Positions 5,153 to 46,601 of a DNA stretch of 64,000 nucleotides are shown piece by piece (the first letter of the stretch is position 1; each line of letters opens with the position of its first letter). Both the position numbers and the translations under genes were made by a program. The notes beneath the pieces were generated by a model that saw nothing but the letters and a program-made list of their open reading frames with translations, made no database searches and was not told where the DNA came from. Source of the stretch: Phosphitispora fastidiosa. Its GTDB lineage: Bacteria; Bacillota; Thermincolia; Thermincolales; UBA2595. Location of the stretch: positions 186,001 through 250,000 of the forward strand of contig NZ_JAHHUL010000003.1 of NCBI RefSeq assembly GCF_019008365.1, given 5' to 3'.

Positions 5153-7099
5153 ATGGAACATAATGTGATTTTCCAGCCTTCCGGCAGAAGAGGAAAAGTT
5201 GCCGAAGGGAAAACGCTGCTGGAAGCATCCTATGAACTTGGGGTGGAGATTGAAGCACCCTGTGGTGCACATAAAGTATGCGGCAAGTGTAAGATCAAGA
5301 TTGAGACCGGTTTCTTTGAGAAATTCAACATAGATTCCCGCATTGAGCACCTGTCACCAATAAATGAAGAAGAAAAAAACCTTCTGAAGCCTGAGGAAAT
5401 AGCAGATAATTACCGCCTGGCCTGTGCCACGGAAATTAAAGGGGATATTCTGATATTTGTACCGGAGGAGAGCCGTAAGGCCGACCAGGTGGTACTTGAC
5501 ACAGGGAAAGAACGTGTCTTCACCCTGGACCCGGCGGTGAAGAATTACTATGTGGAGATGCCTAAAGCTACTTTGGATGACCACAGGGATGATTTAAGGC
5601 GTCTGCAGGACGCGCTTAAAGAGCAGTTTGGACTGGATAACTTATATATGGATTACTTTGTGCTGCGTGAATTGCCTAATAAAATACGTGAGGGAGACTG
5701 GAAGGTAACGGCCACTGTTTTGTATGACCGTGAAATTATAGATGTCAGGCCCGGCTTCGTTCAGAAGTGTTACGGGATAGGAATAGATGTAGGAACGACA
5801 ACGGTAGCGGCATATCTGTGTGACATGAGTACAGGCCAGATGCTGGTAAAGGATGGGATGATGAATCCTCAGGTAAGGTATGGCGAAGATGTCCTGTCCC
5901 GGATAACCTATGCGATGATGAATAAAGAAGGCAGGGATAAACTGCATGATGCCATTATTGAGGGGATAAATACACTGGCATCCCGGATGACAGAAAAAGT
6001 GGGCCTGACACCAACAGATGTTGTGGAGATAACACTGGTGTTTAACACAGCTATGCACCACTGCCTGCTAAACCTGGAGCCGAAGTTTATGGGCCGTTCT
6101 CCCTTTGCCCCGGCAATCAGCGCCCCGTTTGATGTCAAAGCCCGGGACCTCGGGATTAACATTTCCAGGTCCGCCAATATACATGTCCTGCCGGTCGAGG
6201 CAGGCTTTGTGGGCCCGGACAACGTTTCCGTGCTTATTGCAGAGGAACCGTATAAGCAGGATGAGGAAATGCGCCTGCTCATCGATATTGGTACCAATGG
6301 TGAGATAGACCTGGGCAACAGGAATAAACTTCTCTCCACCTCATGTGCTACAGGTCCCGCTCTGGAGGGCGCCCAGATTAAGTTTGGCATGAGGGCGGCC
6401 CCGGGAGCAATTGAGGGAATTAAAATTGACCCCGAAACCCTGGAAGTGACCTACAAGGTAATCGGTGATGAAAAGTGGCATTCCAGGGGCGGTAAATCAG
6501 GAGCCAAAGGTATTTGCGGCTCAGGGATTATCGATATGGTCGCCGAGGTGTTCAAAGCCGGGATAATTAATAAGTCGGGCAAGGTAAATATGAACCTGAA
6601 CACAGAGCGAATCCGGCGCGGTGAGAGCGGAAAAGCAGAATTTGTGCTGGTATTTGCCGATGACAGTGGTATAGGCAAAGATATCACGGTAACCCAGGGA
6701 GACATCCGGGCCGTCCAGCTGGCCAAAGCAGCCCTTTATGTGGGAACCAAAATGCTGATGAGACATCTGGGAGTCGATAAAATAGACCGGGTAACCCTGG
6801 CAGGGGCATTCGGCAGTTATATCAATAAGGAATCTGCAATGGTAATCGGGATGTTCCCGGACTGTGATCTGGACCGGGTGGCGGCAGTCGGTAATGCAGC
6901 CGGAGATGGGGCCCAAGCGGCGCTGTTGGATAAAAACAAACGTATTGAGGCCCGGGATGTGGCCGCAGGTGTTGAATTTGTGGAAACTGCGGTTGAGCCT
7001 GACTTCCAGGAACGTTTTGCGGAGGCGATGGCCTTCCCCCATTCCAAGGACCCATTCCCCAGCATTAAGCATATTCTGGACAAAATTCCCCAACGCTGA
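5153..7099 (+). CDS. RamA/RACE-like corrinoid reductive activator (2Fe-2S plus ASKHA ATPase)
   Basis: The 648-residue protein should reactivate Co(II) corrinoid proteins to Co(I) with ATP. The N-terminal [2Fe-2S] domain has cysteines 37, 43, 46 and 91 in the C-x5-C-x2-C-x44-C ferredoxin pattern. The actin-like ATPase part shows GIDVGTTTVAAYL (about residue 210), LLIDIGTNGEIDLG (about 378), GICGSGIIDMV (about 452) and LAGAFGSYINKESA near 550. This is the bacterial layout with an N-terminal plant-type ferredoxin, unlike methanogen RamA, which carries C-terminal [4Fe-4S] clusters. It sits between the two MtaA-like genes in a dense operon and is the probable activator for the corrinoid proteins at 9232 and 10221. 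Confidence 0.9.
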   Translation: MEHNVIFQPSGRRGKVAEGKTLLEASYELGVEIEAPCGAHKVCGKCKIKIETGFFEKFNIDSRIEHLSPINEEEKNLLKPEEIADNYRLACATEIKGDILIFVPEESRKADQVVLDTGKERVFTLDPAVKNYYVEMPKATLDDHRDDLRRLQDALKEQFGLDNLYMDYFVLRELPNKIREGDWKVTATVLYDREIIDVRPGFVQKCYGIGIDVGTTTVAAYLCDMSTGQMLVKDGMMNPQVRYGEDVLSRITYAMMNKEGRDKLHDAIIEGINTLASRMTEKVGLTPTDVVEITLVFNTAMHHCLLNLEPKFMGRSPFAPAISAPFDVKARDLGINISRSANIHVLPVEAGFVGPDNVSVLIAEEPYKQDEEMRLLIDIGTNGEIDLGNRNKLLSTSCATGPALEGAQIKFGMRAAPGAIEGIKIDPETLEVTYKVIGDEKWHSRGGKSGAKGICGSGIIDMVAEVFKAGIINKSGKVNMNLNTERIRRGESGKAEFVLVFADDSGIGKDITVTQGDIRAVQLAKAALYVGTKMLMRHLGVDKIDRVTLAGAFGSYINKESAMVIGMFPDCDLDRVAAVGNAAGDGAQAALLDKNKRIEARDVAAGVEFVETAVEPDFQERFAEAMAFPHSKDPFPSIKHILDKIPQR

Positions 7100-7165
7100 T
7101 GCTGATTTAGCCGGGTCATACCATATATGATTCCGGGTTAAAAATTTATGATAGTAGGTGAGATG

Positions 7166-8134
7166 ATGTTTAAACTGGAAAAAGACCAAAGGGTCTGCCA
7201 GATAGGAAATTTTAAAGTCGGCGGCCGATACGGGGAGAACCCCCCGCTGCTTATCTCATCCCTTTTCCATAATGGGGATAAGGTATTGGAAAGCCGCAAG
7301 GAAGGCAAGTGGGACCGCGCCAAAGCAGAAGAATATGTTAAGAAACAGGAAGAACTGGAAGATCTCACAGGTATTCCTTCAATAACGGCTATGGTGGCTA
7401 ATTCCGCTGAGGAAATGGCGCGCTATGTTGACTGGTTTACCAGTATCAGTGACCGGCCTTTTGCCATAGACATGTGGGTCGAAAAACCCCGTCTGGAGGC
7501 AGCAGAATATATCGCCAAAAAAGGACTCCAGGACCGCTTGGTATATAACAGCATCACTCCCTGGGATAAGGATATTCCGGGACAGGTAAAGGCTTTGAAG
7601 GAAATGGGAATCAAGCATATTATCGTTCAGGCTTATGAAGTGACAGACCCGTCACCCAAGGGCAGGCTGACAGCCTTTAATAACATGATGGCAGTGGTGG
7701 GTGAAGGCAGTTTTGAGTCCATCATGGTAGACACCTCGGTGATGAACCTGCCGGCAATAGCATTCTCTGGCGCTGCCAACAGGATTATCAAGGAAGCTAC
7801 CGGATGGCCCTGCGGGGTGGCCAGTTCCAATGGTACTTACATGTGGAAGGAGGCCAGGGAACTATTTGGAAAAGATGGTTTTGCGGCTATGAATGCTTCG
7901 GGGCAGGGATGTTCGGCTCTTCTTTGGACTGATTTTATCTTCTACGGCCCGATTGTGGCAGCGCCGAAAATGTTTCCGGCAGTAGTTTCCGGGGCTGTAA
8001 TGGCAGCAACAATGGGATTTTATGAGACCGGGAAACTTCCTGATAACAAGAATCACCCCATTTACAAGTTTTTTGGAGACTTTACTGAAAAATTGGCTTC
8101 AGGGGATCAGCAGTCCCTTCCGGAACATGATTAA
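7166..8134 (+). CDS. MtrH-family methyltransferase (corrinoid to tetrahydrofolate-type acceptor)
   Basis: About 322 residues similar to MtrH and the bacterial MtgA group, which transfer a methyl group from a methylcorrinoid protein to tetrahydrofolate. Characteristic segments are FKVGGRYGENPPLLISSLFH at the N-terminus, FAIDMWVEKPRLEAAEYI, and a conserved GWPCGVASSNGTYMW segment. ATG 7166 is preceded by AGGTGAG; an ATG three bases earlier is equally possible. In this operon it would feed methyl groups from methylamine-charged corrinoid protein into the one-carbon (Wood-Ljungdahl) pathway. The assignment to THF is inference from MtgA of Desulfitobacterium. Confidence 0.86.
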   Translation: MFKLEKDQRVCQIGNFKVGGRYGENPPLLISSLFHNGDKVLESRKEGKWDRAKAEEYVKKQEELEDLTGIPSITAMVANSAEEMARYVDWFTSISDRPFAIDMWVEKPRLEAAEYIAKKGLQDRLVYNSITPWDKDIPGQVKALKEMGIKHIIVQAYEVTDPSPKGRLTAFNNMMAVVGEGSFESIMVDTSVMNLPAIAFSGAANRIIKEATGWPCGVASSNGTYMWKEARELFGKDGFAAMNASGQGCSALLWTDFIFYGPIVAAPKMFPAVVSGAVMAATMGFYETGKLPDNKNHPIYKFFGDFTEKLASGDQQSLPEHD

Positions 8135-8146
8135 ACTGGAGGTAAA

Positions 8147-9199
8147 ATGATGAACGCAAAGGAACGTATTCTTGATTTGCTTAATGGCAAGGAAGTAGAC
8201 CGGCCGGCATGCTTCAGCGGCATGGGAAATGTAACTACAGCAGGGCTGGAGCAGTTCGGATATAAGTTCGCGGCTGTACACAGTGATGCTAAAATGATGG
8301 CAGATACCGCAGCCTCATCATATAAGCTGTTTGGCTATGATTGTGCGGTAGTCCCTTATGACCTGTGTCTGGAAGCAGAAGCTGTCGGATGTGTGATGAA
8401 CCCCTATGAGCAGGTGGACCAACTTCTCTACCCGACTATTAAAGAAAAGGTATGCCATTCCGAAGATGAAATGACAACCTTCCCCATTCCAGAGGATGTT
8501 GCCAATCGGGGCAGGGTACCTGTAGTATGTGAGGCCATCAAGCTGCTTCAGAAGGATATTGGCAGCGAAGTGGCCATCGGGTCATATGTCCTGGGACCCT
8601 TTACCCTGGCGGGTCAGTTAATGGATCTTAATGAATTGTTTAAACTCTCCTTCCGAAGCCCTGACAAGGTGAATGCGATGCTGGACCGCCTGGCTGACGT
8701 AACCATTAAGATTGGCAGAGCATTAAGGAGTGCAGGGGCTGACTATATTACCATCAGGGAAATGGGAGCGACAACTGATGTGTTAAGTCCCAAGGTATTC
8801 AGAAATGTTATTTTCCCACACCTGAAAAAGGTCCGGGAGGCCTTGCAGGATGTCCCTACTATCCTCCATATATGCGGCGGAACCAATAAGATAATGAATA
8901 TCTTAAATGAGGTCGGGTGTAATGCCATATCTGTAGAGACCAAAAACGACCTCGCTAAAAGCCGTGAAGATATAGGAAATGAGCCCCTGATTTTTGGCAA
9001 TGTGGATGCATATAACATCCTGGTATCCGGAAGCCCTGGAGATGTAGAGAAAGCGGTCGTGGCTGCCCTGGAAGGAAGCTGTGATTCCATTTGGCCCAGT
9101 TGTGATATCTGGCCCACAGCTCCAATCGAGAACCTTAAAACCATGGTAGAGACAGTTAAAGAGAACGGCTCTGCCAAATGGGTCCGCAAAAACAGTTAA
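8147..9199 (+). CDS. UroD/MtaA-type corrinoid methyltransferase, copy 2
   Basis: A 350-residue paralogue of the gene at 4118. It has the zinc-site signature ILHICGGTNK near residue 243 and a C-terminal cysteine in IWPSCDIWPT near residue 320. It starts MMNAKERILDLLNGKEVDR after a GGAGG site and lies 12 bases after the MtrH-like gene. Two divergent UroD-like methyltransferases in one operon suggest two transfer routes from the same corrinoid protein, or one catalytic and one accessory copy. The substrate cannot be read from sequence. Confidence 0.85.
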   Translation: MMNAKERILDLLNGKEVDRPACFSGMGNVTTAGLEQFGYKFAAVHSDAKMMADTAASSYKLFGYDCAVVPYDLCLEAEAVGCVMNPYEQVDQLLYPTIKEKVCHSEDEMTTFPIPEDVANRGRVPVVCEAIKLLQKDIGSEVAIGSYVLGPFTLAGQLMDLNELFKLSFRSPDKVNAMLDRLADVTIKIGRALRSAGADYITIREMGATTDVLSPKVFRNVIFPHLKKVREALQDVPTILHICGGTNKIMNILNEVGCNAISVETKNDLAKSREDIGNEPLIFGNVDAYNILVSGSPGDVEKAVVAALEGSCDSIWPSCDIWPTAPIENLKTMVETVKENGSAKWVRKNS

Positions 9200-9231
9200 C
9201 CTATTACATTTAAAACAAGGAGGCTAATGTC

Positions 9232-9888
9232 ATGAGTAAAGAACAGGAAATTTTTGACCGGTTACGGAACGGAGTAGTGGAATATGACAATGATATGGTA
9301 ATTAGCGCTGCCAATGAGGCTTTGGAAGTAGGCCTGGATGCTGAAAAGGCTATCTTTGACGGGTTGGTGTCAGGTATTGAGGAAATCGGCCGGCTCTATG
9401 AACTGGAGGAAATATTTGTCCCCGAAATGCTGCTGGCAGCAGATGCCATGTATGCCGGATTGAATATCCTGAAACCCCATATGAAGAAAAAGAGTGATGG
9501 CAGCACCAGGGGCCAGGTCATCATGGGTGTTGTCCAGGGTGATGTGCATGATATTGGTAAGAATATAGTTAAGATGATGTTTGATGTAGCCGGATTTGAA
9601 GTGCATGACCTGGGCCGTGATGTTCCATTGGAGACCTTTATCGAGGAGCAGTTGAACACAAACTCCGACCTGGTTTGTCTTTCGGCAATGATGACAACAA
9701 CTATGGTCGGGATGCCTGAGATTATCGGAAAACTCAAGGAAAAAAACCCCAATGTCAAGATAATGATTGGGGGAGCTCCGGTAAACGAAAACCTTGCCGG
9801 GCAGTGGGGGGCTGACGGATATGCCAAGGATGCCAATAACGCCCTCAAGGATGCCATTAACATGGTTGCTTCTCTGAGGAATATGTAA
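9232..9888 (+). CDS. Methyltransferase corrinoid protein, copy 1 (MttC/MtbC-like)
   Basis: This 218-residue B12-binding carrier accepts methyl groups from a substrate methyltransferase and presents them to MtaA/MtrH-type enzymes. The N-terminal helical cap domain is followed by the cobalamin motif GDVHDIGKNIV near residue 103, which contains the lower axial histidine. It continues with LSAMMTTTM and the IMIGGAPVN loop. A GGAGG site precedes ATG 9232. No dedicated substrate methyltransferase gene accompanies it in this operon, so it may work with the MttB proteins of the next operon or with one encoded elsewhere. Confidence 0.92.
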   Translation: MSKEQEIFDRLRNGVVEYDNDMVISAANEALEVGLDAEKAIFDGLVSGIEEIGRLYELEEIFVPEMLLAADAMYAGLNILKPHMKKKSDGSTRGQVIMGVVQGDVHDIGKNIVKMMFDVAGFEVHDLGRDVPLETFIEEQLNTNSDLVCLSAMMTTTMVGMPEIIGKLKEKNPNVKIMIGGAPVNENLAGQWGADGYAKDANNALKDAINMVASLRNM

Positions 9889-9899
9889 TTGATTCCAAT

Positions 9900-9937
9900 T
9901 GATTCCGAACAGAATCAAACGATTTTGCCCGGAATCA
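9900..9937 (+). promoter_or_regulatory. Two palindromic activator sites (proposed), distal group
   Basis: TGATTC-N6-GAATCA at 9900-9917 is perfect. CGATTT-N6-GAATCA at 9920-9937 has a degenerate left half. They start 20 bp apart, close to two helical turns. They belong to the same motif family as the sites at 2618-2741 and lie ~200 bp upstream of the sigma-54 promoter at 10130. Confidence 0.7.
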
Positions 9938-10012
9938 GGCAGATGTGGTTTCCCTACAATGAATAGCAGGTAAAAGGGTCTTTGATATGGCAGTAAAAAA
10001 TATTTTTTAGGT

Positions 10013-10062
10013 CAGAAACAGCATGGGCTGATTCCGTTGTGAATCAGCCCATGCTGTTTCTG
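10013..10062. terminator. 22-bp perfect inverted repeat (terminator-like hairpin)
   Basis: Arms 10013-10034 and 10041-10062 are exact reverse complements separated by six bases. There is no T-run on either side, so it is not a standard intrinsic terminator. It may still stop or stabilise the upstream transcript. Its apex is itself one activator palindrome (10029-10046). Confidence 0.6.
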
Positions 10063-10106
10063 GCAGATGATTTACTTGTTAATCACCATGATTCTTACAG
10101 GAATCA
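10029..10106 (+). promoter_or_regulatory. Three palindromic activator sites (proposed), proximal group
   Basis: The sites are TGATTC-N6-GAATCA at 10029-10046, TGATTT-N6-TAATCA at 10068-10085 and TGATTC-N6-GAATCA at 10089-10106. The last two begin 21 bp apart, on the same face of the helix. The nearest site ends only 23 bp upstream of the -24 box. Together with 9900-9937 they fill the 332-bp gap between the two operons, which contains no gene. Confidence 0.74.
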
Positions 10107-10129
10107 GCGCCTCTGTTTTTATAAGTAAT

Positions 10130-10146
10130 TGGCACGTTTATTGCTT
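10130..10146 (+). promoter_or_regulatory. Sigma-54 (-24/-12) promoter of the mttC-mttB operon
   Basis: TGGCAC-gttta-TTGCTT is an exact consensus match with the required 5-base spacer, 75 bp upstream of mttC. It shares its architecture and upstream palindromes with the promoter at 2855, so both operons should respond to the same activator. Confidence 0.92.
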
Positions 10147-10220
10147 GTATTAGTTATTGGGCTGTTATATAGAAACAAGCCTTTTCCGGTTCGACTTTGA
10201 GTTAATTGAGGAGTGGTAGT

Positions 10221-10877
10221 ATGGGTAAGGGAGAGATCCTAAGACAAGCGATGCAGGCAGTTGTTGTTGGCGATGAAGAAGCTGCGGTGGCTGTTGCTAA
10301 AATGGCGGTGGCAGAGGGAATCAATCCTATTGAAGTAATTTCTGACGGACTTTCTGCAGGGATAAAGGAAATCGGTGATTTATTTGAAAAAGACGAAATC
10401 TCTATTCCTTTCGTGATTATTGCAGCTGAAGCAATGTCCAAGGCGATTGCTGTCCTCGAACCCCATATCCCTAAGGAACATAAAGGGAAAAAAGTTGGCA
10501 CCGTTGTTCTGGGCACAGTGGAAGGAGATATCCATGATATCGGCAAAGGGATTGTTGCCACCATGTTGAGAGTTTATGGTTTTGAGGTTCACGATCTGGG
10601 ACGCGATGTTCCGGTAGAGGTTTTTGTCAGCAAGGCTCGGGAGGTAAATGCTGATATTATTGGATCTTCCACCCTGATGACTACAACCCTGCCTGCTCAG
10701 AAGTTACTGCAGGAAGCGGTGGAGGCTGCCGGACTAAAAGTCAGAACCATGGTTGGAGGTGCCGCAGTCAGCCAGTTATGGGCTGACAAAATCGGAGCAA
10801 GTGCATATGGGGAAAATGCCGCCGAAGCAGTGCGCAAAGCCAAGGAATTAGCTGAAAATCAGTGGCAATGGAGGTGA
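10221..10877 (+). CDS. mttC: Trimethylamine corrinoid protein MttC
   Basis: A 218-residue corrinoid protein with the B12 motif GDIHDIGKGIV (axial His near residue 104), SSTLMTTTLPA and the MVGGAAVS loop. Its position five bases upstream of mttB identifies it as the cognate methyl acceptor for the MttB proteins. ATG 10221 follows GAGGAG with good spacing. It is clearly homologous to the corrinoid protein at 9232 but diverged, so the two operons carry distinct carriers. Confidence 0.93.
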   Translation: MGKGEILRQAMQAVVVGDEEAAVAVAKMAVAEGINPIEVISDGLSAGIKEIGDLFEKDEISIPFVIIAAEAMSKAIAVLEPHIPKEHKGKKVGTVVLGTVEGDIHDIGKGIVATMLRVYGFEVHDLGRDVPVEVFVSKAREVNADIIGSSTLMTTTLPAQKLLQEAVEAAGLKVRTMVGGAAVSQLWADKIGASAYGENAAEAVRKAKELAENQWQWR

Positions 10878-10881
10878 GGGT

Positions 10882-12339
10882 GTGAAACGAGGGTTACAGA
10901 CCGGGGTCAGAGAGCGGCGGGGCTTCAGCATTAAGATGTTCAGCCATGATGAACTGGAAGAGATTCACTTGGCTACTCTGGAGATACTGGAACATACAGG
11001 AATTAAAGTATTCTGTGATGAGGCCTTGGAAATTCTTGCCGGAGCAGGCGCCGCCGTTGACAGGACAGGGTTTACCGTCAGATTTCCCCAGCATATGGTC
11101 GAAGATGCCATCCGTTCAGCGCCTGAAAGGGTTTTATTGGCAGCCCGGGATCCTGAGAAAGATGTTACAATTGAAGGAAACAGGGTTGGCTTTACAAATT
11201 TCGGCGCCGGGGTCATGATAGAAAATCCCTACACGGGTGAGATGAGAGAGACCACCAAAAAAGATGTTGGTAATACCGCTCTGATTTGTGATGCCCTTGA
11301 AAATGTTGATATCTATTCGAGCGCTGTGGTAGCCCGTGATATGCCGGAAGGGACTGCTGATTTACACGAGGCTGCAGAGTTTATGTCCAATACAACCAAG
11401 CACTGTCAGCACTTTAACTTAACAGGGGGAAGCGGAGCCAGAAGCTTTCTGGAGATGGGTGCGGCAGTAGCCGGCGGAATGACGGAGCTGTACCGGCGTC
11501 CGGTAATTTCAGCTCTGGTTTGTCCGGTAAGTCCGCTTCAACTGCATACAAATACCAGTGAAATAATAATAGAATTTGCCCGGGCGGGGGTTCCCCTGAA
11601 CATACTTTCAATGGCCATGTCAGGTGCATCTGCACCCATTACACTGGCAGGGACTCTGGTGATTCATAATGCCGAGGTTTTGAGCGGTATTATCCTGGCC
11701 CAGGCTGTAAGGAGGGGTACTCCAGTAATTTATGGCAGTTCAACTACAACTTTTGATCTGACTCATGCGACAGCTCCGCTTGGAGCTCCGGAGCTGGGCA
11801 TGATTAGTGCCGGAGTAGCTGAACTTGCTAATTTTTACCGGCTGCCCTGTTATGTAGCGGGTACCTAGGGTGACTCCAAGCTTTCCGATGCCCAGGCAGG
11901 TCATGAAAAAACGATTACTTCCCTGCTGCCTGCGTTGGCTGGGGCTAATCTGATATACGGCCTGGGTATGCTGGAACTTGGAGTGACCTTTAGCTATACA
12001 CAATTACTGATTGATGATGAGATTGCTGCCATGGTAAAACGAGTGATGCAGGGCATCACCGTTAATGATGAAACACTTGCTGTAGATGTGATCAGGCAGG
12101 TCGGAGCCGGGAAAGATTTCCTGGGGCAACGACACACGAGGGACTATATGGATAAAGAGCAATCCAAACCCAGATTAATCGACAGGAGAATGAGGGGCGC
12201 CTGGCTTAACCGGGGGGGCAAGAGCATGGCTGAACGTGCCAATGAAAAGGCCAGGGAGATTCTGGAAAATCACAAACCAACCCCACTGCCCGATGCGGTT
12301 TTGGCAAAATTTGAAGAAATTATAAAGAGGGATGGCTAA
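10882..12339 (+). CDS. mttB: Trimethylamine methyltransferase MttB, pyrrolysine-containing, copy 1
   Basis: MttB moves a methyl group from trimethylamine to Co(I) MttC. The frame opens at GTG 10882 (GAGGTGAG upstream) and meets an in-frame TAG at 11866-11868. It continues in the same frame to TAA at 12339, giving 485 residues with pyrrolysine at 329. Homology runs through the stop: CYVAGT before it, and GDSKLSDAQAGHEKT and GMLELGVTFSYTQLLIDDEI after it. The family's known Pyl position is 334 in Methanosarcina barkeri. The nearby pyl genes supply the amino acid. Annotated without readthrough, it would look like two broken genes. Substrate specificity for trimethylamine follows from Pyl-type MttB, since Pyl-lacking homologues use betaines. 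Confidence 0.95.
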
Positions 12340-13304
12340 TGCTGCAAGAGATTTTTGCAAGAGTCAGAGACAGCGTAATTGGCAGAGAAAACGAAATTAA
12401 GTATATTCTTGCCGCCATGGATGCCGGGAAACACATTTTATTGGAGGGTCCTCCGGGAACCTCCAAGTCAACCTTATTGCGCAGTATTTCAGGTGCGGCA
12501 GGTATTCCCTTTTTCATCCTGGAAGGCAATATAGACCTCACTCCCGCCAAGCTTGTAGGCCATTTTAATCCCGGTAAGGTATTGGCAGACAACTATCAAG
12601 CGGAGTATTTTGAAAAAGGCCCTCTTACCAGGGCTATGGAGGATGGGGGCATCCTCTATATTGAAGAGTTTAACCGTATGCCGGCAGATGTTTCCAATGT
12701 GCTGATTACTCCAATGGAAGAAGGGGAAATTTCTATCCCCAGGTACGGGACTGTTAAAGCAGCGCGCCTGTTTACTGTTATTGCTGCCCAGAACCCTTAC
12801 GACGATGTTGGTACTGTCCGGGTTAGCAGAGCATTTATGGACCGGATTTGCCTGATCAGGACAGACTATCAGGGTGAAGAAGAAGAACGGGAGATTGTCA
12901 GGCAGCGGACAGGTTCAGAGAACCTTAAAGTTGTTAATTCAGCTGTACGGGTTGTGCGCAAGACTCGGGCACATCAGGATATTAAAATGGGAGCCTCGGT
13001 GAGGGCTGCAATTGATATGGTTGACATTTTTGTCAGTATGCAGAAACTGGCGGACTGTCCCCAGGACCATTTTGTGTCAGCAGCTCACATTGCGCTGGTT
13101 AACAAGATATGGTTAAATGAGACCACCGACAGGAGCCCTGAGGAAATAATTGATGAAATACTGGATATTCCGGGACTTAATAGAAAGGACCTGATACCTG
13201 ATACCGGCACCGATAGTGATACTGATTACAGTGAACAACCACCGGGCATGCAGTCTCTGTCAGCCGGTGAAGAAGAAGAGAAAAAAAAAAGGACCGTCTG
13301 GTAG
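12339..13304 (+). CDS. MoxR-type AAA+ ATPase inside the mttB operon
   Basis: A 321-residue AAA+ ATPase of the MoxR/NorQ/CbbQ type, which act with VWA proteins to remodel or metallate enzyme complexes. The Walker A is GPPGTSKS at 37-44. The Walker B position reads ILYIEEFNR, with Glu where most relatives have Asp. Sensor segment VIAAQNPYDDVGT is present. The ATG overlaps the mttB stop (TAATG). The zero frame ends EEEEKKKRTVW at a TAG (13302-13304) just after a run of ten A (13281-13290). A -1 shift on this run would fuse it to the downstream VWA frame. The target is most plausibly MttB/MttC, by context only. Confidence 0.87.
   Translation: MLQEIFARVRDSVIGRENEIKYILAAMDAGKHILLEGPPGTSKSTLLRSISGAAGIPFFILEGNIDLTPAKLVGHFNPGKVLADNYQAEYFEKGPLTRAMEDGGILYIEEFNRMPADVSNVLITPMEEGEISIPRYGTVKAARLFTVIAAQNPYDDVGTVRVSRAFMDRICLIRTDYQGEEEEREIVRQRTGSENLKVVNSAVRVVRKTRAHQDIKMGASVRAAIDMVDIFVSMQKLADCPQDHFVSAAHIALVNKIWLNETTDRSPEEIIDEILDIPGLNRKDLIPDTGTDSDTDYSEQPPGMQSLSAGEEEEKKKRTVW
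13281..13290 (+). other. A10 homopolymer, candidate -1 slippage site
   Basis: Ten consecutive A lie in the last codons of the MoxR gene, preceded by an acidic GAA/GAG run. The next gene's frame is open from 13271 and is entered by a -1 shift here. Either ribosomal or transcriptional slippage could occur; a sequencing error in the homopolymer is also possible. Confidence 0.55.
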
Positions 13305-13354
13305 GTGACCGGTTCCTTGATAATAACAAAACCAATGTCTCGTATTTTTACGGG

Positions 13355-14158
13355 GTGGCATCTTACCTGAATAGGCATCCGGAAGAACTTGGAGCGTTTT
13401 TTGAGAACGATGATTCCCTGGAGGTATTTGCCAATATTTTCACTATGCTGACACATCAGGTTCGCACCAAGGCAGTAAAAATTGCCAGCCGTCTGATAGT
13501 AAAAATTGCCAGGCAAATTGCTGATACGGGTTACCGGTCCGGACCGCTCAAGCTGGCTCGCGGCTTTCAGGACGGGGCTGAAATTGAGTTGGACAAAAGC
13601 CTGGAAAACTATACAGCTGAGCCTGAGCGGGGGATATTGGACAATATTGTTTCATACACCAGACAGAGAGAGAGATTAGCCTTTGTTATTATGCTGGACC
13701 ACAGCTACTCAATGAAGGGACTCAAAGTTATCCTGGCTGCAATCACTGCGGCTTCCATTGCCCAGCATTTTAAAATGGACTATGCAATCCTGGGTTTTTG
13801 TAACCGGGTCTCGGTCCTGAGGGACATTAATGAGGCCACGGGGCCGGAGACGGTTGTGGAAAGAATATTTGGACTGGAACTGAAGGGTGACACTGACATC
13901 CATCTGGCTCTGGAGGCCGGGTTAAAACAGGTCGGTAACTTCGAGAGAAAAATAGGCTTACTCCTGACAGACGGGGCCTGGAACCAGGGAGATGACCCCT
14001 TGGCGGTGGCGGCAAAATTTGACAAGCTGAGCGTAATCGGCTTTCCACCGGCAAAACCGGATAAAATTCGCCAAATAGCTCGCAAGGGTAAAGGAGAATT
14101 TTCCTTTGTCACCGATGAAAAGGGAATTTCGGAAGCAATTCTGAAGTGTTTGAAGTGA
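13355..14158 (+). CDS. VWA-domain protein paired with MoxR in the mttB operon
   Basis: The C-terminal half is a von Willebrand A domain with an intact MIDAS motif DHSYS (residues 115-119 from GTG 13355) and a later LLTDGAW segment. It resembles NorD/CoxE-like partners of MoxR ATPases. The start is uncertain. GTG 13355 lacks a ribosome site, while the frame is open back to 13271 with plausible coding sequence (DRFLDNNKTNVSYFYG) and no ATG, GTG or TTG start. The natural reading is a -1 frameshift from the MoxR gene at A10, giving a ~606-residue fusion; a CTG at 13298 is an alternative. A metal-dependent chaperone role for MttB/MttC is inference. Confidence 0.8.
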   Translation: MASYLNRHPEELGAFFENDDSLEVFANIFTMLTHQVRTKAVKIASRLIVKIARQIADTGYRSGPLKLARGFQDGAEIELDKSLENYTAEPERGILDNIVSYTRQRERLAFVIMLDHSYSMKGLKVILAAITAASIAQHFKMDYAILGFCNRVSVLRDINEATGPETVVERIFGLELKGDTDIHLALEAGLKQVGNFERKIGLLLTDGAWNQGDDPLAVAAKFDKLSVIGFPPAKPDKIRQIARKGKGEFSFVTDEKGISEAILKCLK

Positions 14159-14179
14159 TGTCAGGGATATTATTAGTTG

Positions 14180-15631
14180 ATGGGTGGTGCCCGCATGTTA
14201 AGGGATCTAAAGGCAAATAGTTCGCATTGGCTGGGGTTGGGCATGCAGTCAATGGCTCCGGCACAGTTGGATGAAATTCATAATGCCACCTTAAAGGTGC
14301 TGCAATTTACCGGGATAAAAGTTTACTGTCCGGAGGCGCTGCAGACCCTGGCAGAGGGAGGCGCAGATGTGGATTTTGTTTCCGGCAGGGTACGTATTCC
14401 GGCTTATCTTGTCGAGGATGCCATTGCCTCTGCCCCGTCCTATGTAATCTTAGCTGCCAGGGACCCCCAGCATGATGTCTATGTGGGCGGCAAGCGGGTA
14501 CATTTTACGACTTTCGGTTCCGGGTGCAGAGTAGTTGATTATATAACAGACGATGTTCATGAGTCCACTAAAACTGATGTTGAGATGACGGCACTGGTAT
14601 GTGATGCCCTGGACAATGTTGATATTTATGTAAGTACCCTTAAGGCTACGGATATGCCAATAGAAACTACCGGGCTGCACGAGGCGGAAGCTTTTTTACT
14701 CAATACCGTAAAACACTGCCAACATACCAATCTGGGCAGCGGGCACGAAGCTGTCAACTTCTTTAAGATGGCTGCCGCCATTACCGGCGGAACGGAGGAA
14801 TTGCGCAGGCGTCCAATCGTTTCCGCAATGGTTTGCCCATCCAGTCCCTTGCAGTTACACAAAGCAACCTCTGAGATCATTATGGAATCTGCCAGAGCAG
14901 GTATCCCGGTTAATATTCTCTCAATGGTTATGGCCGGTGCTACCGCACCGGTAACTTTGGCAGGAACCCTGGTAGTTCACAATGCAGAAGTCCTGGGTGG
15001 AATTGTATTACACCAGTTGACTAATAAGGGCGCCCCCGTTATTTACGGCAGTTCCTCGACCATTTTTGATATGAAAAGCCTGACAGCCCCGGTGGGCGCT
15101 CCTGAAATGGCAATGCTGAGCGCGGCTTGTGCTGAACTGGCCAACTTCTATTTGCTGCCAAGCTTTGTTGGAGGCACTTAGGGTGATTCCAAACTGCCTG
15201 ATATCCAGATTGGCCATGAAAAAACAATAACAACTGTGATTACTTCACTTGCCGGGGCCAATATGATTTTCGGCATGGGAATGATAGAATTGGGGTTGAC
15301 ATTTAGCTTTACCCAGCTGATTATTGATGACATGATAGTAAATGCTGTAAAGAAAATTATTAATCCTGATATGGGAATAAGCAGGATTAGAAACCGGGAG
15401 TGGCTCAACTGTCTGATCGGAAAAGGTTTTCCAGTCAATGGTTGGTCGCCCCATAGAGTCAGAAATAACTCCTTCCCCGAAGTTTACCAATACAATAACA
15501 CACCTGACATCATCCGAACGGCCAAGGACAGGGTCCAGAGCATTTTGAACCAGCATAAACCGGAAGAACTCCCTAACAGCATTAAACACAAAATAAGAGA
15601 AATAATTATTGATACAGAATCAGAATCATAA
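14180..15631 (+). CDS. mttB: Trimethylamine methyltransferase MttB, pyrrolysine-containing, copy 2
   Basis: A second MttB paralogue of 483 residues with an in-frame TAG at 15179-15181, placing pyrrolysine at residue 334 when counted from ATG 14180. The context FVGGT-Pyl-GDSKLPDIQIGHEKT mirrors copy 1. The bases around the UAG (ACYTAGGGTGAYTCCAA) are nearly the same in both genes. The start could be TTG 14177, ATG 14180 or ATG 14195, with no clear ribosome site. The two copies differ enough to suggest different substrate preference or an old duplication, and the MoxR/VWA genes are inserted between them. Confidence 0.93.
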
Positions 15632-15783
15632 TATTGCCAGAATAAATAATACAATTTACTGATTAGATTAGATAATTACCACTCAGGCAACTTAATCTGA
15701 CATTGAAGGAAGAATGGTTGAAATCACTACGGTTAGGCATTATGATTTGATTAGGTCATGCCAGAAAAGGGAGGTTTAATGAA

Positions 15784-17886
15784 TTGATTTTGATTAAGGA
15801 CTTAATGCTTCATAATCCACCTTTTCTTTATGTTAATAATAAGGTCAGTCATGCCAGGTTGATTTTCGGGAACAGCAAGCTCAGCAGCATTCCGGTTATC
15901 TATAAAAACGGCGCTCTCGCCGGAATTCTGGATAAAAATATAGTGCAGCAGGAACATTTATCTCCCTTATCACAGGTGGGCAATTATATATATACATGTG
16001 AAAGTCTGATCTATGAAAATGACCCTGTCGCTGTTATTTCAACTTTAAGTATTGATGCAAAAACCGCTATACTTCCGGTACTTTCCCGCGAAGGAAAACT
16101 AATGGGAATAATTCCTCTTCCGATGGTTTTAAAAGATATTCTTGACGAATTCATCAAATGCCTGGAGCTGGTAGCGGTTCACTATGATAAAGACCCCAGG
16201 ACTTATGGGATAATTATTGTAAATGATGATGGAGAAATCGTATATTTTAATGGAAATACAGAAAAGATAACCGGTCTTCATGGCAAGGAAGTCTTCGGAA
16301 TTCATGTCAACAAGGTTCTGTATGATTCCAAGCTGCATGAAGTTGTCAAAAAGGGCAAGACTCATCTCAGCGCCCGGATGAATGCCGATAATGTGGTTTT
16401 ATGTACTAACAGGTTTCCTCTTCATAAGGATGGGGTAATTGTAGCAGCGGTCGGAATTTTTGAAGACATTTCCGAGAAAGAGCGGCTTCATGAAAAATTG
16501 CGCAGCTTACGGGGCCTTAACCTGGAAATGGTAGGCATCCTTGAATCCATTAATGACGGAATTATTCTTGCAGATAATAATGGCAGCATTCTTAGGACCA
16601 ACTCTGCTTTTGAAGCAATTTCAGGTCTTTCGGCAAGCCAAATTTTGAGCAATAATTATGATTACCTGGTTGAACATGCCAACCTGCCTGCGATGGCTTT
16701 TTGGGGGGTGCTGGAAAAGAAAAGGCCCTTTCATGTTCTTGAACACATTAATGGCCGGGATTTTATGGTAGCCTCAAGACCGGTGTTTGATACCGATGGC
16801 CAGTTGCTAAAAGTAATTGTATTTATTAAAGACATATACCACCTGAATGAAATGATTTTGAACCTTCAGCTTACTCAGGAACTAGCCACAAGGTACTATA
16901 ATGACAGGGATATTGAACACAGCCAGTATGAACGGGATGATATGGTCGCCAGCAGTAAGGCGATGAAACGAGTGGTATCACTGGCACATAAAGTGGCTAA
17001 GGTTGATTCAAATATATTGATTACGGGAGAAACCGGTGTGGGCAAGGAAGTTGTGGCCCGCTCTGTCCACAACTGCAGTCATCGAATGGATGGGCCTTTT
17101 ATCAAGCTGAACTGTGGTGCCATTCCCGAACACCTGCTTGAGTCTGAGCTGTTTGGCTACGAATCCGGCGCTTTTACCGGGGCCAAAAAAGAGGGGAAGA
17201 TCGGACTGATAGAGCTTTCGGATTGTGGGACATTATTCCTTGATGAGGTTGCCGATTTGCCGGTAGCCCTGCAGGTTAAACTGCTGCGGGTACTCCAGGA
17301 GCGGGAAGTAATGCGCGTTGGCGGCACAAAATCCAAAAAAGTAGATTTCAGGCTGATAGCCGCTACCAACAAAGATTTGGAGCAGATGGTCAAGGAGCAG
17401 AATTTCAGGGAAGACCTTTTTTACAGGTTGAATGTAGTACCTGTAATAATACCTCCATTAAGAGAGAGAAAAGAAGATATAATTCCTCTCGTGCTTTTTT
17501 TCCTGAATAAATTTAATAAAAAATATAATTTGGGTAAAAAGATATCTCCTGAAGTTATTCAGAGTCTGCTTAAATATGATTGGCCGGGGAATATCAGGGA
17601 ACTGGAGAATACTATTGAACGGCTTATAGTAACCAGTGACAGTAATCTAATTCAAATTGAAGAAATGAAACAAAACACCAGTATTAATATTGTTCCTAAC
17701 ATTGATACCGCAAACTCCCCCAAAGCATTGGGTGATCTGCTGGAAGAAACTGAAAGAAACCTGATTTGCCAGGCCTTCAAAAACTGCAAAACAACCCGTG
17801 AAATGGCGGATACACTTGGCATAAGCCAGTCAGCGGTGGTCAAGAAGATGAAAAAATACGGAATCAGTAAGGTGGCAAACGGATAA
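15784..17886 (+). CDS. Sigma-54-dependent activator with CBS pair, two PAS domains and Fis-type HTH
   Basis: The 700-residue regulator has a CBS-like pair (about residues 1-115), PAS 1 (about 130-235), PAS 2 (about 245-355), and a sigma-54 AAA+ domain with GETGVGKE at 415-422 and GAFTGA at 462-467. A C-terminal Fis-type helix-turn-helix (CKTTREMADTLGISQSAVVK) follows. It resembles RocR/PrdR-type activators of amine and amino-acid catabolism. TTG 15784 is used after GGGAGG, since the nearby ATG frame stops at once. It lies directly after the second mttB. It is the natural partner of both sigma-54 promoters and of the TGATTM-N6-KAATCA palindromes. CBS and PAS domains suggest sensing of a nucleotide and a small ligand or redox state. 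Confidence 0.93.
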   Translation: MILIKDLMLHNPPFLYVNNKVSHARLIFGNSKLSSIPVIYKNGALAGILDKNIVQQEHLSPLSQVGNYIYTCESLIYENDPVAVISTLSIDAKTAILPVLSREGKLMGIIPLPMVLKDILDEFIKCLELVAVHYDKDPRTYGIIIVNDDGEIVYFNGNTEKITGLHGKEVFGIHVNKVLYDSKLHEVVKKGKTHLSARMNADNVVLCTNRFPLHKDGVIVAAVGIFEDISEKERLHEKLRSLRGLNLEMVGILESINDGIILADNNGSILRTNSAFEAISGLSASQILSNNYDYLVEHANLPAMAFWGVLEKKRPFHVLEHINGRDFMVASRPVFDTDGQLLKVIVFIKDIYHLNEMILNLQLTQELATRYYNDRDIEHSQYERDDMVASSKAMKRVVSLAHKVAKVDSNILITGETGVGKEVVARSVHNCSHRMDGPFIKLNCGAIPEHLLESELFGYESGAFTGAKKEGKIGLIELSDCGTLFLDEVADLPVALQVKLLRVLQEREVMRVGGTKSKKVDFRLIAATNKDLEQMVKEQNFREDLFYRLNVVPVIIPPLRERKEDIIPLVLFFLNKFNKKYNLGKKISPEVIQSLLKYDWPGNIRELENTIERLIVTSDSNLIQIEEMKQNTSINIVPNIDTANSPKALGDLLEETERNLICQAFKNCKTTREMADTLGISQSAVVKKMKKYGISKVANG

Positions 17887-17913
17887 TATCAATTGGCTCA
17901 GATAATAACGTAA

Positions 17914-17955
17914 CCCTCTGCCTTTGGCTATCTCTGCCAGCTAGAGGGCTTTTTT
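17914..17955 (+). terminator. Intrinsic terminator after the sigma-54 activator
   Basis: CCCTCT (17914-17919) pairs with AGAGGG (17943-17948), with an inner TGGC/GCCA stem, followed by CTTTTTT. It ends the methylamine regulon. Confidence 0.8.
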
Positions 17956-17977
17956 GTGTTTGCCTCCATAGCAAGCG

Positions 17978-18283
17978 CCGGAAATGGCCGGGAAGGGAAT
18001 ATGGTGGGCTGTTGTACCGATTTTCCGCAGTGCCACCTATGAGTCTAGCTGCCACCCCCCGGCAACAAGGCAGCGTCCCCGAACTCGATGGCTCATGGGG
18101 CCTGTTTCATAAAATGGCCGCCTCTCGTTTTGGCAGGCCAAAACTTCCCGGCGGCCTTCGCCATCTTCGGACATGCGGGGACTCCCTGCCTTGCTGCCGG
18201 TGACTTGCAGCAAGACTCATAACGGCGGCAGTGCAAGGAAAATCTTTGTACAACAGCCCACCATATTCCGCGGCCATTTCCGG
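17978..18283 (+). repeat. Palindromic MITE-like repeat, copy 1 (306 bp)
   Basis: Terminal inverted repeats CCGGAAATGGCCG / CGGCCATTTCCGG flank a non-coding, imperfectly palindromic body with nested hairpins, for example GTTTTGGC-AG-GCCAAAAC. The inverted symmetry extends into the flanks: GTTTGCCTCCAT at 17958 is matched by ATGGAGGCAAAC ending at 18300. Copy 2 (26421) is nearly the same sequence in the opposite orientation, and copy 3 (61039) is a shorter version. No ORF is credible. The rest of 17887-18466 holds only the terminator and this element. Confidence 0.85.
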
Positions 18284-24502: not shown

Positions 24503-25531
24503 ATGATGGTGAACCGGGATAATATAGTGGACACGGCTAAAATAGATGAGGCACAGGTTCAGGAGGTTGTTACCAGGGTCCGTCAAATAGAGGCAGAGGT
24601 TTCCAGGGTTATGGTGGGACAGGGGGAGGTCATCAGACAGATCCTGCTTACCCTGATGGCAGGCGGACATGCCTTGCTGGAAGGAGTTCCCGGACTGGGG
24701 AAAACCCTGCTGGTGCGGACCCTTGGCCGGGCGCTGGGGCTAAAATTTGCCCGTATCCAATTCACTCCTGACCTGATGCCTGCTGATATAATCGGTACTA
24801 ATATCATGACTGAAACAGACCAGGGAAGGGGCTTTAAGTTCCAAGCGGGAGCGGTTTTTGCTAACCTGGTCCTGGCAGATGAAATCAACCGGGCGACTCC
24901 CAAGACTCAAAGCGCTCTTCTGGAGGCAATGCAGGAACGGACGGTATCTGTGGCCGGAGTAACCAGGCCGCTGCCGGCCCCTTTCTTTGTGCTGGCGACC
25001 CAGAACCCTCTGGAAATGGAGGGGACTTATCCGCTTCCGGAGGCTCAGATGGACCGGTTCCTGTTTAAGGTTCAGGTTGATTTCCCCGGCGAAGCAGACC
25101 TGCGGGATATTTTACTGAGAACCACGGTTCATGGCGAGACTGAGGTTAACCAGGTAGCCGATGCTGCGGATTTGGCAGGGCTGATCAAAACAGCTACTGC
25201 TGTTCCTGCTGCCGGACATGTAACTGATTATATCATTCGGCTTATTCTGGCGACTCATCCCGAACGCCCGGAGGCTTCTGAGCGGGTAAGGAAATATGTG
25301 CGTTACGGGGCCAGCCCCAGAGGCGGCCAGGCAATCCTGCTCACGGCAAGAATCAGAGCCCTTCTGGAGGGGCGCTTTAATGTAGCCTTTGAGGACGTGG
25401 AGGCTGTCGCCCTGCCTGCTTTGAGACACCGGTTCTTCCTGAATTTTGAAGGTGAGGCTGAAGGTATTACGGGTGATATACTGATTAAAGAATTGTTGGA
25501 ATCAGTTCCCAAAGCCGGGGGAGTGAAATAG
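24503..25531 (+). CDS. MoxR family AAA+ ATPase
   Basis: The 342-residue MoxR ATPase shows Walker A GVPGLGKT, Walker B LVLADEINRATPKTQ, sensor VLATQNPLEMEGTYPLPEAQ and arginine finger region MDRFLF, all canonical. It pairs with the DUF58 protein directly downstream, as in the widespread moxR-DUF58-VWA gene set, where the ATPase is thought to act as a chaperone for membrane or secreted complexes. It is distinct from the MoxR in the mttB operon. ATG 24503 or 24506 follows TTGGAGG. Confidence 0.94.
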   Translation: MMVNRDNIVDTAKIDEAQVQEVVTRVRQIEAEVSRVMVGQGEVIRQILLTLMAGGHALLEGVPGLGKTLLVRTLGRALGLKFARIQFTPDLMPADIIGTNIMTETDQGRGFKFQAGAVFANLVLADEINRATPKTQSALLEAMQERTVSVAGVTRPLPAPFFVLATQNPLEMEGTYPLPEAQMDRFLFKVQVDFPGEADLRDILLRTTVHGETEVNQVADAADLAGLIKTATAVPAAGHVTDYIIRLILATHPERPEASERVRKYVRYGASPRGGQAILLTARIRALLEGRFNVAFEDVEAVALPALRHRFFLNFEGEAEGITGDILIKELLESVPKAGGVK

Positions 25532-25532
25532 A

Positions 25533-26414
25533 GTGGAGGGCCTTTTTTTTGAGCGGGAATTTCTGAATAAGCTTGAGAGTATGGGATTTCTCCTGAAGAA
25601 GGCCATGACCGGACGGTACAGCGGACAACACCGCTCCCCCAGGAAAGGGCAGTCAGTGGAGTTTGCTGATTACCGGCCCTACAGCTCCGGAGATGACTGG
25701 CGGCAGGTTGACTGGAACGCATATGCCAGGCTGGACCGGCTGTTTATCAAGCTGTTTATGGAGGAACAGGATCTTTCTGTGCATCTCGCAGTAGATACCA
25801 GTGGTTCCATGGAATGGGGAGGCGGGGCCAAGCTTAAGATGGCCAGGGAAGTGGCCGGAGCGCTGGGATACCTTGCCCTTGTCAATATGGAACAGGTGGG
25901 GGCTGCCGCCCTCAATAACAATATGTCCGGTTTTCTGCCCCTGCAGAGAGGGAAGGCAGGCATTAGCCGGCTTTGGAGCTATTTGGGGCAACTGCGCCCG
26001 GGAGGGGCCACTGATTTGAATCTGGCCCTGCGCAAGGCAGGCCGGTTTATCCGGAGGCCCGGAATCACGGTGCTTATTTCTGACCTCCTCAGTCCGGCGG
26101 GGTATCAGGAGGGCTTGAAGTACCTGCAGCACCTTGGCCAGCAGGTGGTTGTGCTTCATATTATGTCCGCAGCGGAGAAGAACCCTGAAATTCTGGGAAA
26201 TTACCGGCTGGTTGACTGTGAGAATCAGGAATTCAGGGAAGTGAGTATTACACCGATGCTGCTGGAAGCCTACCGCAGGCAGGTGAACGGTTTTGTCGAA
26301 GGTATTGCGGGTTTTTGCGGCAGCAGGCAAATAACTTACCTGAGTGTGACGGCAGAGGATAACCTGGAGGATATTCTGCTGCATTCACTGAGGAGTATTG
26401 GTGTATTGGTATAG
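25533..26414 (+). CDS. DUF58 domain-containing protein
   Basis: This 293-residue protein has the DUF58 signature SVEFADYRPYSSGDDWRQVDW at about residues 35-55. It also has a degenerate VWA-like fold with LAVDTSGSMEW near residue 86, in which the MIDAS pattern DxSxS is intact. GTG 25533 lies one base after the TAG of moxR and follows GGGGGAG. It works with the MoxR ATPase in related operons. A MITE-like repeat begins six bases after its stop, so the operon continues across that element. Confidence 0.9.
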   Translation: MEGLFFEREFLNKLESMGFLLKKAMTGRYSGQHRSPRKGQSVEFADYRPYSSGDDWRQVDWNAYARLDRLFIKLFMEEQDLSVHLAVDTSGSMEWGGGAKLKMAREVAGALGYLALVNMEQVGAAALNNNMSGFLPLQRGKAGISRLWSYLGQLRPGGATDLNLALRKAGRFIRRPGITVLISDLLSPAGYQEGLKYLQHLGQQVVVLHIMSAAEKNPEILGNYRLVDCENQEFREVSITPMLLEAYRRQVNGFVEGIAGFCGSRQITYLSVTAEDNLEDILLHSLRSIGVLV

Positions 26415-26420
26415 AAGGTT

Positions 26421-26724
26421 CCGGAAATGACCGGGGCATATGGTGAGCTGCTGTACAAGATTTTCCTTGCACTGCCGCCGTTATGAGTCTTGCTGCAAAG
26501 CACCGGCAATAAGGCAGGGAGTCCCCGCATGTCCGAAGATGGCGAAGGCCGCCGGGAAGTTTTGGCCCGCCAAAACGAGAGGCGGCCACCTTGCAGAAAA
26601 GCTTAATGAGCCATCGAGTTCGGGGACGCTGCCTTGTTGCCGGGGGTTGGCAGCTTAGACTCACAGGCGGCAGTGCGGAAAATCGTTACAACATCTCACC
26701 ATATGCCATCCCGGTCATTTCCGG
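26421..26724 (-). repeat. Palindromic MITE-like repeat, copy 2 (304 bp, inverted relative to copy 1)
   Basis: Termini CCGGAAATGACCG and CGGTCATTTCCGG; the reverse complement aligns with copy 1 along nearly its whole length, including the central hairpin block. It sits between two genes of one operon, starting six bases after the DUF58 stop and ending 36 bases before the next ATG, so it is transcribed as part of the message. Confidence 0.86.
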
Positions 26725-26759
26725 AGCCAACGATAAGTAATAGAAGGAGGGGCGTTGAT

Positions 26760-46592: not shown

Positions 46593-46601
46593 GTGCTGTG
46601 T

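Follow-up and report, generated by a model that had tools for sequence, protein, structure and literature searches.

The long form of the subunits made from chlD/chlI-type chelatase genes contains a VWA domain. In these Mg/Co chelatase genes a programmed -1 frameshift has been described (Antonov 2013, PMC3711429; Kuznetsov 2022, PMC9227772). An experimentally confirmed cluster showed -1 frameshifting of up to 63% in E. coli, and fused relatives exist (PMC3711429). In two MoxR systems, the MoxR:VWA stoichiometry is 6:1, namely CbbQ6O1 (PMC4660213) and NorQ6D1 (PMC9976466). Here we examined a moxR gene and a VWA reading frame of Phosphitispora fastidiosa, located in a 64,000-nucleotide stretch of contig NZ_JAHHUL010000003.1 (positions 186,001 to 250,000), hereafter called the window. 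They lie between two trimethylamine methyltransferase (mttB) genes. Taken as a whole, we consider it reasonably probable that they form one slip-recoded gene, whose products would build a mixed AAA+/VWA ring acting on an MttB-family/corrinoid system.

Frame relation between moxR and the VWA reading frame

The moxR gene (12339..13304, + strand) has a short product of 321 aa and a 0-frame stop, TAG, at 13302-13304. Three codons 5' of this stop lies a run of ten adenines (13281..13290, + strand), in the moxR-frame phase A_AAA_AAA. The VWA reading frame (13283..14158, + strand) is in the -1 frame relative to moxR and is open back through the run, while the listed open reading frame (ORF) starts at GTG 13355. 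Relatives were gathered by one genome-contig scan and two genome searches. The ortholog set covered seven genomes of three families, mostly metagenome-assembled genomes, and comprised the window and loci L009 (genome G009), L010 (G007), L011 (G005), L012 (G006), L023 (G001) and L029 (G194). In all seven, the VWA sat in the -1 frame of moxR, an A8-A10 run closed moxR, and the VWA frame stayed open 5' through that run. The runs were phased A_AAA_AAR, as either A_AAA_AAA or A_AAA_AAG, which are classic -1 slip types. An in-phase heptamer within the last 20 codons was found in 3 of 212 other genes from the orthologous loci, and 13281-13290 was the sole A/T run of at least ten in the window.

The segment between the slip site and the VWA domain (DRLVGDRFLDNNK in the window) was protein-coding in the -1 frame across the moxR stop, with the motif R[FYL]VG[ND]RF[LV]D in five Thermincolaceae. 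Column permutation of this conservation gave a p value of 5e-5, which is not a strict probability because the sequences are related. Pairwise differences at the three -1 codon positions numbered 34, 27 and 79, and the segment contained no stops in the -1 frame versus 13 in frame 0. In the closest pair, L011 and L012, the synonymous (dS) and non-synonymous (dN) divergences were 0.74 and 0.02 for the linker, and 0.65 and 0.025 for the VWA domain. It is difficult to account for the third-position pattern other than by coding in the -1 frame. Amid these variable third positions, the GTA codon that creates the moxR TAG was invariant. This is one codon in five sequences, and it hints that the short MoxR form is also kept. 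Overall, the locus showed an in-phase slippery heptamer, a -1 frame open through it and protein-level conservation before any start, which are features expected of a programmed -1 frameshift gene. In the original prediction, moxR and the VWA were taken as two ordinary genes. The constant -1 relation, the A-run and the conservation across the stop favour a different arrangement, in which both ORFs probably belong to a single recoded gene.

The 0-frame stop of moxR was TAG in six of the seven orthologues, though these genomes encode MttB of the pyrrolysine (Pyl) type, and L023 had a double TAG. Read-through of this UAG was considered and rejected, as the frame-0 extension was short and not conserved.

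A programmed -1 frameshift or transcriptional slippage would yield both MoxR and a MoxR-VWA fusion of ~606 aa, a length calculated from the coordinates. A -1 slip of the ribosome or of RNA polymerase would take place in the A8-A10 run close to the moxR 3' end. Translation would mostly terminate at the moxR stop to give the 321-aa AAA+ subunit, and a fraction of the products would enter the -1 frame to give the fusion, with a flexible linker. RNA polymerase slippage is an equal candidate, because transcription of A9 runs tends to slip in many bacteria (PMC1088944). Ribosomal slip seems likelier in L023, where the run is A8. The two forms would co-assemble into an AAA+ hexamer that carries a small number of VWA domains, as CbbQ6O1 and NorQ6D1 do, and by this analogy we infer about one VWA per MoxR ring. 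The slip efficiency would set the VWA:ring ratio, and the adaptor would be covalently tethered. Single-frame MoxR-VWA proteins occurred among distant homologues, namely L013 (675 aa) and the partial L025.

Domains and gene neighbourhood

The unit is a MoxR AAA+ protein with a VWA partner that carries a metal ion-dependent adhesion site (MIDAS). In MoxR (AAA_5, 84 bits; AAA_3, 59 bits), an AAA_3/AAA_5 core was found together with Walker A, Walker B, an arginine finger and sensor 2. Comparison with the orthologues showed conservation of Walker A (GPPGTSKST), Walker B (IEEFNR), SRAFMDR and GASVR. Glu at the first Walker B acidic position, in place of Asp, was correctly pointed out in the original prediction. 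Each of the seven orthologues has this Glu, and L013, the distant fused homologue, has IDEFNR. The VWA protein matched VWA_CoxE with 34.3 bits (cut-off 26.4) and VWA with 33.4 bits. Its MIDAS DxSxS-T-D was complete, reading DHSYS-T-D in the window, with D139, S141, S143, T204 and D230 (numbered from 13283) invariant. The AlphaFold model of the VWA protein had a mean predicted local distance difference test (pLDDT) score of 77, with low confidence in linker residues 1-17, and its top structural match was NorD of the NorQD complex (E 4e-7). Matches to pentatricopeptide repeats in phmmer searches with the VWA protein were rejected as repeat artefacts, with single domains non-significant. A second VWA gene of the same family survives elsewhere in the genome as a broken remnant with 52-55% identity (G000:C2:254549-255016; L024:10550-11017); the region contains transposase-like ORFs as well.

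The placement between two mttB genes in a sigma-54 operon, as originally predicted, was borne out by the coordinates, the domain scores and the profile scores of both mttB genes. All features of this transcription unit are on the + strand. An exact consensus match to a sigma-54 type -24/-12 promoter, TGGCACGTTTATTGCT, lies at 10130..10145, where 0.58 matches with up to one mismatch would be expected by chance; the window scan found a second exact promoter at 2855. The first gene of the unit encodes a corrinoid protein of the MttC/MtbC type with B12-binding domains (10221..10877; pyl_corrinoid TIGR02370, 225 bits, cut-off 215.3), for which ATG at 10221 was preferred to the listed TTG at 10206. 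It is followed by mttB1 (10882..12339), in which an in-frame TAG (11866-11868) is read through as Pyl, and TAATG forms the overlap of the mttB1 stop with the moxR start. Downstream of the VWA frame lies mttB2 (14177..15631; TAG at 15179-15181), a divergent Pyl-type MttB paralogue. Both mttB1 (740 bits) and mttB2 (562 bits) scored above the TIGR02369 cut-off of 525 bits. The TAG codons are decodable as Pyl because pylC (527-1726; PylC-like_N 21.9 bits and ATP-grasp) and pylD (1668-2546; PylD_N 94 bits) for pyrrolysine biosynthesis are on the + strand of the window, and PylS (C3:184690-185409) and tRNA-Pyl(CUA) are located just upstream. The likely regulator of the unit is a sigma-54 activator that has CBS and PAS domains (15784..17886; Sigma54_activat 240 bits, PAS, CBS, HTH_50).

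An MttB-family gene was adjacent to the unit or one gene away in all seven genomes, spanning three families, and an MttB-family or corrinoid gene always lay within about two genes. In the five Thermincolaceae loci, the VWA was followed by mttB2 and then by the sigma-54 activator. In G194, a corrinoid gene and a standard Pyl-MttB followed the unit, with pylC and pylD nearby. In G001, a corrinoid/DUF2284 pair flanked one side of the unit; on the other side were a kinase, a non-Pyl MttB, a corrinoid protein, a pterin-binding methyltransferase and the corrinoid activator RACo. With MttB of the non-Pyl type beside the unit in G001, the role of the unit is not Pyl-specific, and a Pyl-specific role was rejected as the sole role. 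The gene neighbourhood led us to infer that the client is the MttB/corrinoid system, with the MttB-family/corrinoid pair as the most likely partner. The VWA domain would use its MIDAS face to dock on one of the proteins of the neighbouring methyltransferase system, and by analogy with CbbQ6O1 and NorQ6D1 the MIDAS would bind an acidic residue of this client. Hydrolysis of ATP would then remodel the client by activation, by loading of a cofactor or partner, or by rescue of an inactive state, all of which are alike compatible with the sequence. The two actions put forward in the original prediction, remodelling of MttB-MttC and corrinoid loading, are likewise conjectural.

The paralogue mttB2 formed its own clade (support 100/100, stem 0.74), keeping the barrel and Pyl, with its ~90 C-terminal residues replaced. 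The conserved 'VNDETLAVD..VGAGKDFLGQRHTRDYM' region is missing from it, and its C-terminus is new. Among the compared loci, mttB2 was found only beside MoxR-VWA in Thermincolaceae. It may act on a new substrate or be the special client of MoxR-VWA, but the unit occurs without mttB2 in G194 and G001.

The two-ORF type occurred in 7 of 299 genomes of the phylum, all within the 20 that have Pyl-type MttB, so that the co-occurrence with mttB expected from the original prediction was seen in other genomes (p 2e-9 by genome, 3e-4 collapsed to families). A profile search of 16 further genomes, most being other Pyl-MttB genomes, matched only the fused-type gene of G008. In the family of G194, the unit was present in G194 only, of 8 genomes. 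No relatives were found in a plasmid search with VWA or a viral-contig search with MoxR, and a Methylomirabilota search with the fused homologue returned its own genome only, among 95. The idea of a chaperone for Pyl-dependent MttB held as far as the MttB/corrinoid adjacency in all seven loci is concerned. The tie to Pyl was broken by G001, and the unit was not general, being absent from 13 of the 20 sampled Pyl-MttB genomes. The MoxR-VWA unit is an accessory and not a requirement for MttB in general, because most Pyl-MttB genomes are without it.

Further corrinoid-related genes were recognized from domain and family profile matches upstream of the operon, all on the + strand: a RACo-type corrinoid activator (5153-7099), MtrH (7148-8134), an MtaA-type protein (8147-9199) and another corrinoid protein (9232-9888). 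A gene for DUF2284, a Cys-rich, predicted metal-binding protein, lay upstream of moxR in five loci (L009:8308-8874, L011:4737-5360, L012:5319-5888, L023:9231-9791 and L029:11345-11899), with a transporter gene between them in L011 and L012. The window operon is without DUF2284, and four copies are located elsewhere in the genome. Among 14 control genomes, DUF2284 was present in Methanosarcina acetivorans only.

A second MoxR/VWA set was observed in the same genome as the window (L036, G000:C9:106000-125900, at 5164-18052). Its MoxR is of the CbbQ/NorQ type (CbbQ_C, 105 bits), its other member is a 940-aa protein whose C-terminal part matched VWA weakly, and its neighbours include three URO-D methyltransferase-like, two corrinoid, two CobW and two DUF2284 genes. 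This region may represent a further corrinoid system that has a chaperone of its own. A cluster of a kinase of the APH/choline-kinase fold, a non-Pyl MttB, a corrinoid protein and a pterin methyltransferase was found in G009 (L040:13275-16627) and G001 (L023:11948-15349), and looks like a quaternary-amine pathway. MoxR-VWA accompanied it in G001 and was absent in G009. Within the window, a conventional MoxR-DUF58-BatA-type VWA cluster with a different MoxR type (30% identity) lies 10 kb downstream at 24503-31443, and a Cas3-type helicase/nuclease at 46593-48923 probably marks a type I CRISPR-Cas locus.

Alternative explanations

Several observations weigh against a slip-recoded gene serving MttB-family enzymes. 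Downstream of the slip site, no excess RNA structure was found (z -0.8 to +0.7 in six loci and -1.9 in L029), and upstream stimulators resembling a Shine-Dalgarno sequence were clear in only two of the seven loci. Five of the seven genomes have one common inherited arrangement, and the 13 Pyl-MttB genomes that are without the unit also count here. In addition, ATG, GTG or TTG was present near the homologous VWA start in four loci (L010, L011, L012 and L023). These last codons, with one inside a helix in the window, would suit two separate proteins. The VWA would then arise through re-initiation downstream of moxR, with GTG 13355 or some non-standard codon as its start, and the A-run would be incidental; separate genes are indeed the rule in most described MoxR/VWA systems (PMC4660213). 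We regard this as improbable. The coding conservation reached upstream of every candidate start and across the moxR stop, and no ATG, GTG or TTG was found at the homologous position in the window, L009 or L029. All candidate starts had weak or absent Shine-Dalgarno pairing (dG +0.5 to -3.3 kcal/mol), compared with -4.4 to -13.6 kcal/mol for moxR, mttB1, mttB2 and the corrinoid gene. Initiation at GTG 13355, an annotated start that is probably wrong, would also cut the first predicted VWA helix (model residues 18-31), and the frame relation was -1 in seven of seven loci. A sequencing error in the homopolymer, or decay of a fused gene, is barely credible as an explanation. An A10 run is error-prone in some chemistries and the genome does hold the broken VWA remnant at C2:254549, but the identical -1 relation recurred in seven assemblies with run lengths of 8, 9 and 10, both frames are under strong purifying selection, and the MIDAS is intact.

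Regarding the client, the corrinoid protein or its reductive activation, with DUF2284 and RACo, might be the target instead of MttB itself. Corrinoid genes were close by in every locus with enough flanking sequence, DUF2284 preceded moxR in the five loci given above, and RACo occurred in the same gene clusters. This alternative deserves attention but is rather unlikely, as the window operon has no DUF2284 despite its four genomic copies and MttB is the gene directly 3' of the VWA in five of seven loci. An ordinary MoxR/VWA pair of general role might also have hitchhiked in the operon, in keeping with the several other MoxR genes in the genome and with the many Pyl-MttB genomes that are without the unit. 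The very narrow distribution and the repeated MttB/corrinoid adjacency in three families, with differing local contexts, make such hitchhiking quite unlikely. A slip-recoded MoxR-VWA gene linked to the MttB/corrinoid system remains our preferred explanation.

Comparison with known systems

Our literature search turned up no chaperone or activase for MttB-family methyltransferases, and no paper in it mentioned MoxR together with either corrinoid or trimethylamine methyltransferase. The adjacency to MttB/corrinoid genes in six related genomes suggests a dedicated helper for this enzyme class. If the proposed reading is true, ATP-driven remodelling would be linked to methylamine and quaternary-amine demethylation, and the 6:1 subunit ratio would be a testable consequence of slip efficiency. 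Gene callers would misplace the VWA start in such genes.

The VWA protein shares with CoxD/CoxE the match to Pfam VWA_CoxE; CoxD and CoxE are encoded by separate genes. A CoxDE system was rejected by context, as annotation of the window and of the orthologous loci showed no coxMSL (CO dehydrogenase) genes. GvpN was rejected with 79 bits against an NCBIfam cut-off of 266.8. The long form encoded by E. coli dnaX is its in-frame product, and an A_AAA_AAG-type -1 slip leads to the short form. A transcriptional slip at A9 in Thermus dnaX gives two forms in a set ratio (PMC1088944). Like dnaX gamma/tau, the unit is an AAA+ gene in which an A_AAA_AAG-type -1 or A9 slip would give two forms. It differs in that the AAA+ proteins are unrelated and that the slip in the window would yield the long form, in contrast to E. 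coli dnaX.

As with CbbQ/CbbO, a MoxR motor and a VWA adaptor are encoded beside the presumed client enzyme (PMC4660213), while CbbO is ~770 aa, separately encoded, and has Rubisco as its client. NorQ/NorD, which inserts iron into cNOR, likewise has a MoxR ring and a MIDAS VWA protein, and NorD was the best structural match; the VWA partner in the window is much shorter, and NorQD comes from separate genes. NorQD itself was rejected because the window MoxR has no CbbQ_C/PF08406 domain, found in the L036 protein, and no nor genes were among the annotated neighbours. Like chlD, one gene would give an AAA+ subunit and a longer AAA+ form by a -1 slip, and unbroken fused relatives exist. In contrast to chlD, the window MoxR belongs to another AAA+ clade and has an MttB/corrinoid context. 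ChlI/ChlD or CobS/CobT chelatases were rejected, with 30.6 bits against a cut-off of 779 (cobaltochelatase) and 29.1 against 499 (BchD), and no ChlH/CobN large subunit was seen among the annotated neighbours. If true, chlD would be joined by a second example of a single slipping gene that provides both AAA+ and AAA+-VWA subunits. Taken together, the unit likely resembles chlD in gene arrangement and CbbQO/NorQD in biochemistry. More tentatively, it might serve MttB-superfamily corrinoid methyltransferases as a dedicated AAA+/VWA activase whose subunit ratio is fixed by frameshifting, the slip efficiency giving each hexamer about one VWA adaptor. Such a 'methyltransferase activase' would be the counterpart of CbbQO, which acts on Rubisco.

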